Assembly: GCA_002435585.1 (NCBI GenBank)
Contig: DJDY01000038.1
Location: 1-17,415, forward strand
Length of the DNA: 17,415 bases
DNA from: Lachnospira sp. UBA5912
Lineage (GTDB): Bacteria; Bacillota; Clostridia; Lachnospirales; Lachnospiraceae
Direction of reading: 5' to 3'
This document shows, one piece after another, positions 209-14,799 of this stretch (within the stretch, counting starts at the first letter, position 1; every line of letters begins with the position of its first letter). The position numbers and the translations under genes were made by a program. The notes beneath the pieces were generated by a model, which saw only the letters and a program-made list of their open reading frames with translations, ran no database searches and was not told where the DNA came from.

Positions 209-2263
209 ATGAATAATAAGCAGGAAAAGTCATTTCGTCCATCAGGAAGGCTTAACTCAGTTTTTGTGTGGCCTGTAGCTCTTGGAATAGTACTTATTGT
301 AGTTGATTTTGCATTGTATTTTATAAATGTGCCAGCAGCATCGGTAGTTGCTGTGTTTGCATTTATATATGTATTGGTGTGTGCATTTATGATATTGTAT
401 TACAAGCCAAGAATTATAAAGGAAATCGTTGAATTTTCTTCTAATTATTCACAGGTTCAGAGACAATTACTTTATAATCTTAGTATTCCTTATTGTCTGC
501 TGGACAACAAGGGTAATATATTGTGGATGAATTCTGCCATGCAGCATTGCATAAACAAAAAGAACGATTATAACAAGAATATATCAACAATAATTCCTGA
601 ATTGTCAGCCAATGTATTTAGAAACTTTGATGATTATAAAGAAGTAAGGATTGCTCTTAATGACAGGGATTATAAAGTTGAAATGAAAAGAATAAGTGCA
701 GATATTCTTACCCAGGGAGTTAATATACTTTCAAAGGATTATAATTCATCACTTGTTGCCATGTATATGTTTGATGAGACAGATGTTAACAAATATATCC
801 AGAAAATCAAGGACGAGAGATTCGTTGTTGGTCTTGTATATATTGATAATTATGAGGATGCACTTGAAAGTGTGGATGACGTAAGAAGGTCTCTTTTTGT
901 TGGCCTTGTAGATAAGAGAGTTAACAAGTATTTCTCGGCAGGAGCAGCAATTATAAGAAAAATGGAAAAGGATAAGTATCTGGTAGTATTCAGATATAAG
1001 TTCCTTGAACGTATTTTTGCAGATAAGTTCAGTTTAGTAGAGGATATAAAGAGTGTCAAAGTTGGCAATGAGAAAACATTGACCTTAAGTATTGGTGTTG
1101 GAACAGGTGCCAGCGATTACGCGAAAAACTATGAGGTTGCCAAGGCGGCCATGGATCTTGCATTAGGTCGTGGTGGCGACCAGGCAGTTATCAAAGATGG
1201 CGAGAAGATATACTATTATGGTGGCAAGAGCCAGCAGATGGAGAAGAATACGAGAGTAAAGGTGCGTGTAAAAGCCCACGCTTTAAGGCAGATTCTTGAA
1301 GCTAATGATAATGTGCTTATTATGGGGCATAGTCTTCCAGATATTGATTCATTTGGCTCGGCTCTGGGCATATATATTATAGCCAGAAAGCTTGGCAAAG
1401 AGGCCCACATTGTGTTTGGAGAGATTTCAACAAGTGTGAGACCTTTTATGAATCGTTTTATTAATAAAGACGATTATCCTAATGATATGTTCATAAGTAA
1501 AGATTCAGCTGAGAGTTATCTTAAACCATCAACCGTTGTTATTGTTGTTGATGTTAATCGTGCACAGAGAACAGAATGTCCGTCACTTCTTGATAAGTGT
1601 AAGACGGTAATAGTGTTTGATCATCACAGGCGTTCAAGTGACACCATATCAGGTGCTGTTCTTTCATATGTTGATCCATATGCATCCTCTGCATGTGAGA
1701 TGATAACAGAGATGATACAGTATGTAGATGACGGAATCAGATTAAAGGCATTTGAGGCAGATGCATTATATGCTGGTATATCAATAGATACAGATGGATT
1801 TAACAGTAAGTCAGGTCCTCGTACATTTGAAGCGGCAGCATTTCTTAGAAGGCATGGAGCTGATGTTACAAGAGTAAGAAAAATGCTGCGTAACGATATG
1901 GATGAATATAAGGCGATAGCTTCTGCGGTGAGTAAGTCAGAGGTCTATAGAAATGCGTTTGCAATAACTGTATTTGATGGAACCGGACTTGAAAGCCCAA
2001 CAATCGGAGGAGCTAAGGCAGCTAATCAGCTGCTTGATATATCTGGTATAAAAGCTTCGTTTGTTATTACGGCTTACGAGGATAAACTGTATATCAGTGC
2101 CAGATCTATAGATGAGGTAAACGTCCAGCTCGTCATGGAAAAACTTGGAGGCGGAGGACATATGAGCATCGCCGGAGCCCAGCTTTCAGGCTGCACCACA
2201 GAGCAGGCTGTTAACACAATAAAACTCACCCTCGACAAAATGCTCGAAGATGGCGAGATATGA
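209..2263 (+). CDS. gdpP: GdpP-type cyclic-di-AMP phosphodiesterase (DHH/DHHA1, degenerate GGDEF)
   Basis: This is a membrane-bound phosphodiesterase that hydrolyses the second messenger c-di-AMP, which controls potassium and osmolyte balance and wall stress in Firmicutes. The 684-residue length is close to the family's usual 650-660. Two membrane helices lie at about residues 18-65, followed by a PAS-like segment (about 85-150) and a degenerate GGDEF domain (about 200-320) without a GGDEF signature. The DHH domain follows, with GHSLPDIDS (373-381; H374, D378 and D380 as likely metal ligands), VVDVNR, and the DHH triad at 471-473. The DHHA1 domain ends the protein, with GGGGH at 647-651. The ATG at 209 has GGAG 6 nt upstream. 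The adjacent rplI and dnaB genes match a common Firmicutes order. The TGA stop is also the first three bases of the palindromic element that follows. Identity is secure; c-di-AMP specificity is inferred from family architecture. Confidence 0.95.
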   Translation: MNNKQEKSFRPSGRLNSVFVWPVALGIVLIVVDFALYFINVPAASVVAVFAFIYVLVCAFMILYYKPRIIKEIVEFSSNYSQVQRQLLYNLSIPYCLLDNKGNILWMNSAMQHCINKKNDYNKNISTIIPELSANVFRNFDDYKEVRIALNDRDYKVEMKRISADILTQGVNILSKDYNSSLVAMYMFDETDVNKYIQKIKDERFVVGLVYIDNYEDALESVDDVRRSLFVGLVDKRVNKYFSAGAAIIRKMEKDKYLVVFRYKFLERIFADKFSLVEDIKSVKVGNEKTLTLSIGVGTGASDYAKNYEVAKAAMDLALGRGGDQAVIKDGEKIYYYGGKSQQMEKNTRVKVRVKAHALRQILEANDNVLIMGHSLPDIDSFGSALGIYIIARKLGKEAHIVFGEISTSVRPFMNRFINKDDYPNDMFISKDSAESYLKPSTVVIVVDVNRAQRTECPSLLDKCKTVIVFDHHRRSSDTISGAVLSYVDPYASSACEMITEMIQYVDDGIRLKAFEADALYAGISIDTDGFNSKSGPRTFEAAAFLRRHGADVTRVRKMLRNDMDEYKAIASAVSKSEVYRNAFAITVFDGTGLESPTIGGAKAANQLLDISGIKASFVITAYEDKLYISARSIDEVNVQLVMEKLGGGGHMSIAGAQLSGCTTEQAVNTIKLTLDKMLEDGEI

Positions 2264-2434
2264 TGCCCCAAGGGTAGAAAGTACAATGTCCGTTCGTGCT
2301 GGCACGAAAAGGACATTGTACTTTCTACCCGCTCAAACATGAGAAAGGAGCGATTTACGAAGTAAATCAGCGGAATTCGAATGTTTGAAGAATTGCGTGA
2401 GTGCGAAGCGGCGGAGCAATTCGTAGGGGCATCA
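2261..2434 (+). repeat. Cloverleaf-forming palindromic element between gdpP and rplI
   Basis: An outer stem pairs TGATGCCCC (2261-2269) with GGGGCATCA (2426-2434). It encloses three arms. Arm 1 is a perfect 20-bp stem, 2272-2291 with 2311-2330, topped by TTCGTGC (2293-2299) paired with GCACGAA (2302-2308). Arm 2 pairs TCAAACAT (2333-2340) with ATGTTTGA (2381-2388) and holds the hairpin GATTTAC-GAA-GTAAATC (2352-2368). Arm 3 pairs GAATTGC (2390-2396) with GCAATTC (2416-2422). The stop codon of gdpP lies in the outer stem. The element could be a structured RNA, a processing or attenuation site, or a genome-specific interspersed repeat. I do not recognise it as a known riboswitch or L9 leader. 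The pairing is seen directly; the function is unknown. Confidence 0.8.
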
Positions 2435-14677: not shown

Positions 14678-14799
14678 TAATAATATGATATGAGTGTCAA
14701 AAGTAAATTTTGACACTCACTGATGTCCCAAGTAAAAAAGTCTTTTTCCGCAAGCAGAAAAAGACTTTTTATACTTTTGACACTTACATCATATTATTA
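14678..14799. repeat. 122-bp nested palindrome between convergent genes
   Basis: The outer arms 14678-14705 and 14772-14799 are complementary at 26 of 28 positions. Inside, the left arm can instead form its own hairpin, GAGTGTCAAAA (14692-14702) with TTTTGACACTC (14708-14718). The right half holds the strong hairpin at 14735-14770. The GTGTCAAAA sequence therefore occurs three times in alternating orientation. The element could be a gene-end structure or a miniature inverted-repeat element. It encodes nothing. Confidence 0.75.
14735..14770. terminator. Bidirectional terminator between the deaminase and DUF402 genes
   Basis: A perfect 14-bp stem, AAAAAGTCTTTTTC (14735-14748) with its complement (14757-14770), has an 8-nt loop and T runs on both strands. 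It suits the two converging genes. Confidence 0.88.

Follow-up and report, generated by a model that had tools for sequence, protein, structure and literature searches.

The cloverleaf-forming element at positions 2261-2434, between gdpP and rplI, is very probably a lineage-specific insertion of a non-autonomous, transposon-like repeat of the MITE (miniature inverted-repeat transposable element) type, the folded core of which is the Clostridiales-1 sRNA of Rfam (RF01699). The family is dispersed and multicopy, has related inverted ends and is flanked by 7- or 8-bp direct repeats, and in these respects behaves like a transposable element of the MITE kind. A previous reading of this DNA from its letters (the sequence-only reading) had proposed an inserted repeat element as one explanation for the exact closure of the fold, and this is supported by the many copies, the inverted ends, the target-site duplications of the family and the empty sites in relatives. 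The relevant features of the window (the whole stretch of DNA analysed, 17,415 nucleotides) are:

209-2263, + strand: gdpP, its stop codon TGA (2261-2263) supplied by the element
2261-2434, + strand: whole element, cloverleaf core of the Clostridiales-1 / GAT..ATC repeat, with GAT..ATC at 2262-2433
2261-2269, + strand: 5' strand of the closing stem, TGATGCCCC, the reverse complement of 2426-2434
2272-2330, + strand: arm 1, a perfect 20-bp stem, then a 6-bp inner stem and a loop of 4 nt
2333-2388, + strand: arm 2, an 8-bp stem (2333-2340/2381-2388), a conserved purine-rich internal loop and an inner hairpin
2390-2422, + strand: arm 3, a 7-bp stem (2390-2396/2416-2422), a conserved purine-rich internal loop and a small hairpin
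2426-2434, + strand: 3' strand of the closing stem, GGGGCATCA
2476-2922, + strand: rplI (50S ribosomal protein L9), starting 41 nt past the element
14687-14790: second family member, internally deleted, with both GTGTCAAAAG inverted ends; RF01699 match on the - strand at 40.3 bits, below the cut-off

The exact closure of 2261-2434 as a cloverleaf, described in the sequence-only reading, was confirmed together with its coordinates and arms. The outer stem (2261-2269/2426-2434) is perfect over 9 bp and does include the gdpP stop, as had been pointed out, the TGA at 2261-2263 forming its first three bases. Arm 1 pairs perfectly over 20 bp (2272-2291/2311-2330) and then over 6 bp (2293-2298/2303-2308), so that of the 20 plus 7 bp first attributed to this arm the 20 bp hold and the inner stem is one pair shorter. 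The inner hairpin of arm 2, GATTTAC-GAA-GTAAATC, lies at 2352-2368. Folded as RNA, 2251-2444 reaches a minimum energy of -91.1 kcal/mol, compared with -46.6 +/- 4.1 kcal/mol for 200 dinucleotide shuffles, none of which was as good (z -11.0). Among perfect 20-bp inverted repeats with loops of 3-30 nt, the one in the cloverleaf is the sole example in the whole window, and 20 mononucleotide shuffles of the window produced none.

No known family had been recognised from the letters. In Rfam 15, RF01699 matches 2264-2431 at 127.5 bits (cut-off 48) over the full length of the model (1-166), closing stem and three arms included; it is the only match above cut-off in the window and is typed 'Gene; sRNA'. 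The table row for Clostridiales-1 in Weinberg et al. 2010 (PMC2864571) gives 'y n n', Clostridiales and human gut, the three columns standing, in our reading, for RNA, cis-regulatory and switch. In the article text, none of the passages on repeats, palindromes, transposition, single-stranded DNA and DNA elements is about the Clostridiales-1 motif, and a full-text literature search by the name and accession of RF01699 found no description of the family as mobile.

At the junction the window reads GAGATAT / GATGCC...GGCATC / AAAAG, and a Shine-Dalgarno-like AGGAGG occurs within the 41 nt separating the element from rplI (a gene name taken from the sequence-only reading; the protein matches the gene following gdpP in relatives). 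A gdpP match is present in 18 of 21 genomes of the same genus and missing from three, and the element is absent from the gdpP-rplI junction in all 18, which identifies the window element as an insertion. In these relatives gdpP ends at the same position with TAA or TAG. In 16 of the 18, rplI follows after -1 to 2 nt; the two others have gaps of about 15 and 42 nt. The nearest named GdpP (88%) is that of 'Lactobacillus rogosae' ATCC 27753, which we take to belong to Lachnospira and whose junction reads GAGATA-TAG with a gap of 42 nt; Lachnospira multipara and L. pectinoschiza follow among named species at 72%, which suggests that the genus is Lachnospira or a close neighbour. The junction was also read in 27 of 51 loci found in named species, and the element is absent from all 27; gaps measure -4 to 4 nt at 21 of these loci and 15-92 nt at five, and the remaining locus (L255) has a gap of 159 nt. 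Comparison of these junctions indicates that 2261-2434 is an insertion on the gdpP stop codon and that the inserted DNA now gives the stop. An Rfam scan of six junctions (L244, L245, L246, L255, L263 and L055) gave no RF01699 match above cut-off. The 159-nt gap of L255, which comes from another species, is a different, palindrome-rich sequence with no Rfam match above cut-off.

Family copies in which both ends are present show what the complete element looks like. The typical sequence from end to end is GATRYY..RYATC; the inverted ends are related (GGGTCAAAAG), a GATRYYRGGGTCAAAAG-like sequence forming the terminal inverted repeat at both ends. A typical full copy consists of TGATACCAGGGTCAAAAGG, the cloverleaf and GGTATCA, then a hairpin ending TTTTGACCCCAACATCA, and complete copies are mostly about 185-215 bp long. 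Both ends were recognised by script in 62 of the 117 rows collected (55 went unscored, and one locus without duplication, L139 = L303, enters the 62 twice). Exact direct repeats flank 44 of the 62, of 7 bp in 31 and 8 bp in 13, with no other length among the 4 to 12 examined, and 18 rows have no exact duplication. Exchanging right flanks among copies yielded a mean of 1.5 and a maximum of 6 duplications in 1000 trials. The duplicated target is AT-rich and variable in sequence. Within the window's own genome (loci L001-L053), six of nine two-ended elements have a duplication of exactly 7 bp. A 5-bp reading of the duplication (26/59) was dropped, as placing the boundary at GAT..ATC explains more copies. 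The end pattern itself is specific: G252 has 17 forward and 16 reverse matches against 0 and 0 for a reversed-pattern control, which matched nothing in five genomes, and with two mismatches allowed the window's genome has 48 and 66 matches against 16 and 5 for the control.

Many one-ended and internally deleted copies occur alongside the full ones; the deleted copy at 14687-14790 in the window lacks an exact duplication of 7-8 bp, having just 4 bp at its ends. Inspection by eye revealed tandem pairs separated by the duplication (L313, L316, L319, L320 and L322). There are also short copies that have 7-bp duplications and no cloverleaf (L014 and, read by eye, L196), which may be later deletions. 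Tandem cloverleaf copies spaced by 146 or 190 nt are also found at G058:C4:37397-37842, C34:24570-24913 and C8:56613-56956. A variant of about 236 bp in G291 (L325, L326, L333 and L336) has an extra hairpin (..GTGCTGAACATCCAGTGGATGTTC..) at arm 3, which may be another element nested in the first.

A subgroup of copies (L079-L085, L134, L170 and L187), which stood outside the duplication scoring, has other outer stems and lies directly after T runs. In L079-L081 (G004, G003 and G002) the stems after the T runs are AGTGAC..GTCACT, and the arm sequences are very different while the conserved loops are similar. At least L082 (G001:C1:2019419-2019569) and L083 (G007:C118:3369-3519) are preceded, judged by eye, by a hairpin resembling an intrinsic terminator. 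These two copies belong to two other same-genus genomes, where they directly follow the hairpin and T-tract near the gdpP start, some 2 kb upstream of the 3' end of the gene, and partial arm 1 repeats come after the RF01699 copy.

The family is dispersed both within and among genomes. A covariance-model search of the genome and its relatives, the check suggested in the sequence-only reading, returned many scattered copies: 23 RF01699 matches at E<=1e-3 in the window's own genome, nine of them over the cut-off, and matches at E<=1e-8 in 178 of 397 Lachnospiraceae genomes, with seven candidates scored per genome. Within the genus, 17 of 22 genomes (own included) have a match at E<=1e-3, 13 of them over the cut-off, and at the class level 14 of 391 genomes have one at E<=1e-5 (11 from the same family, one from the same order and two from one other family of the class). 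None of 14 control genomes had a match. Copies at E<=1e-8 in nine genomes number at least 88, at least 70, at least 66, at least 40, 14, 12, 4, 3 and 3, the four largest counts being lower bounds based on scoring 125 of their 169-225 candidates. Seven G058 copies at different sites are 96.8-100% identical, evidence of recent spread. A 251-base query around a G058 copy had partial matches in one of 72,556 plasmids (Butyrivibrio fibrisolvens, three places) and in eight of 50,697 phage records, and IMG/VR contains two exact matches to the end pattern. In ten contigs of G047 (C7, C20, C22, C24, C37, C49, C64, C67, C69 and C72) an element end lies some 55-115 nt from the first base, and the repeat may therefore break assemblies.

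From the combination of fixed-length duplications and inverted ends we infer a DDE-type transposase, which would recognise the ends and move the copies in trans. No transposase-carrying element with the same ends was found among the ends listed for G252, G339, G410 and G211 (complete, with up to one mismatch) and G291 (exact pattern, among the matches listed); G302 has one such end only and is uninformative. Three inward-facing end pairs 1.4-4.1 kb apart, the ones not obviously comprising two complete elements (L194 in G339; L323 and L324 in G291), enclose or lie next to ordinary genes, none of them a transposase (Pfam, 10 ORFs), as does the sole inward pair in G000 (C157, L073; Pfam, 3 ORFs). 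A 49.9-kb Butyrivibrio plasmid stretch has no matching ends, including beside its transposases. The IS256-type transposase (PF00872) was rejected as a general mobiliser, being present in four of 11 genomes and absent from the other seven, including the high-copy G058, G214 and G047 (40-88 copies), and the best inverted repeats beside seven of the PF00872 transposases found are different from the family ends. The other outer stems of the T-tract subgroup imply that one enzyme may not explain every RF01699 copy and that two or more systems may act on the core.

Selection on the structure of the core, one of the two options that the sequence-only reading had offered for the single copy, is supported for the family. 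In an alignment of 46 of the 48 nonredundant copies (L104 and L114 dropped), two-sided changes occur at 44 of 49 pairs in 401 cells, compared with 43-114 cells when the partner is slid by 1-3 columns and a mean of 129 (maximum 152) in shuffles; the shuffles ignore relatedness and the structure derives from the same alignment, so these numbers are not probabilities, and the excess is large. The window copy has standard pairs at 47 of the 48 letter-bearing pairs of the consensus from these 46 copies. This strong covariation, along with conserved unpaired purine motifs, is what would be expected of a bona fide small RNA gene, present in many copies, carried by recombination and acting in trans as RNA. 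Such a gene is also favoured by the folding of the + strand, which is better than that of the - strand in 97/97 copies with RNA parameters and 96/97 with DNA parameters, an advantage that we take to reflect the conserved purine-rich loops on one strand, and by helices that tolerate G.T somewhat more than A.C (25:12 in the 48 nonredundant copies, 78:20 in the 117 rows). However, an RNA gene does not account for exact target duplications at the outer ends, for up to 88 copies or for copies in both orientations relative to genes. Little upstream sequence is shared at fixed positions: flanks from -60 to -10 (50 nt) of 41 nonredundant copies have a mean information of 0.12 bits, with a background of 0.09 and a maximum of 0.52, which argues against a dedicated promoter outside the element, although a promoter at variable distance would escape this count. 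Helices of the family also contain fewer G.T pairs per 100 Watson-Crick pairs than those of RNase P (1.44 vs 3.95), but their A.C figure is reduced as well (0.69 vs 1.48), and what remains is that family helices are more perfectly paired than RNase P helices. We consider a small RNA gene quite unlikely.

The near absence of pairs other than Watson-Crick (about 1.4 G.T and 0.7 A.C per 100) would suit a core maintained as folded single-stranded or cruciform DNA, by analogy with integron attC, with folding as part of transposition. The position of the T-tract subgroup directly after T-tracts points the same way, as did the ratio of G.U to A.C in helix columns, which in the first count was 1.6 in the family, 18 in RNase P and 31 in TPP riboswitches of the same clade. 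Restricted to mainly Watson-Crick columns the ratios are 0.8-2.2, 6-12 and 3-8, the last based on few counts, so that the contrast with TPP is not clear. When the count is alignment-free and strand-neutral, nothing is left of the contrast with RNase P (family 2.0, interval 0.9-6.1; RNase P 2.6, 1.3-6.4; TPP 2.6), and we do not claim a DNA-like signal; an earlier alignment-free count on the + strand fold, biased by the folding model, was 58:4 and leaned the other way. Short copies with 7-bp duplications and no cloverleaf also speak against a need for folded DNA, unless, as noted above, they arose by later deletion. We regard maintenance of the core as folded DNA as possible but fairly unlikely. 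A third explanation, originally put forward in the sequence-only reading, is a structure in the mRNA that acts in cis, insulating or attenuating rplI downstream of gdpP. The fold in a gdpP-rplI transcript would be very stable, and 87 gene contexts, read with a simple ORF caller and setting aside the mechanical ORFs that 35 of 97 copies overlap, show a mild co-directional excess (31 co-directional, 17 opposite, 27 divergent and 12 convergent; 18 vs 11 among nonredundant copies between one-strand genes). This orientation bias is weak, and a role in separating expression is not needed to explain the element because copies between one-strand genes take both orientations. Family copies occupy all four gene arrangements, the element is absent here from the relatives and named loci read, and the row in PMC2864571 scores the motif 'n' in what we take to be the cis-regulatory column. 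A cis-acting function is highly improbable.

Returning to a MITE-type insertion, the copy in the window appears to be a relic. It ends at the closing stem without the usual 3' hairpin, and its flanks (..GAGATAT/GAT and ATC/AAAAGTAG..) show no target-site duplication; the copy is therefore unlikely still to be mobile. Its sole inverted end is the 9-bp closing stem, and the GGGTCAAAAG part differs; in arm 1, at the place where other copies have the GGGTCAAAAGG inverted end, it reads GGGTAGAAAGTAC. Judged by these features, it is probably an old, shortened copy that can no longer move and acts on gdpP and rplI only as a structured spacer, providing the gdpP stop and 174 nt before rplI. It may also affect rplI expression. 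With a TGA at both ends, an element could close a reading frame, and landing at the end of a gene, as at gdpP, would therefore be harmless. The folded core would be kept because it is helpful to the element, whether the folding takes place in the DNA during transposition or in a transcript.

Like MITEs, the family is short and non-coding and has inverted ends, target duplication, a high copy number and AT-rich targets; unlike them, it has a three-armed core conserved by covariation, and no parent element with the same ends was found. The Bacillus cereus repeat bcr1 is likewise a dispersed, structured, mobile-looking repeat, about 150 bp long with an average of 39 and up to 130 copies per strain; its mobility is linked to TTTAT and may be site-specific in mechanism (PMC6542083, PMC2267715). 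By contrast, duplications in the present family are 7-8 bp, variable and AT-rich rather than TTTAT, and the ends are GAT..ATC. An earlier case in which a search for RNAs yielded a structured motif attributed to mobile DNA is OTH-22-1, an attC-like motif from an ncRNA pipeline judged to be single-stranded DNA of a mobile system (PMC8632094). The attC site, with its RYYYAAC consensus, is a recombination site (PMC8632094), whereas the RF01699 family has target duplications.

The finding raises the question of why a transposon-like element keeps a covarying three-armed core. One proposal, which we regard as rather unlikely, is that the three-armed fold is the mobility determinant, and that these are gene-less transposons moving via a folded single strand, DNA or RNA, with a trans-acting enzyme; if this were true, the entire Rfam sRNA family would be a mobile element and not an RNA gene. 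RF01699 is filed as a small-RNA gene in Rfam, whereas the duplications, inverted ends and empty site indicate a mobile element. Its copies can cap genes, as with gdpP here, and can pass wrongly for regulatory RNAs.
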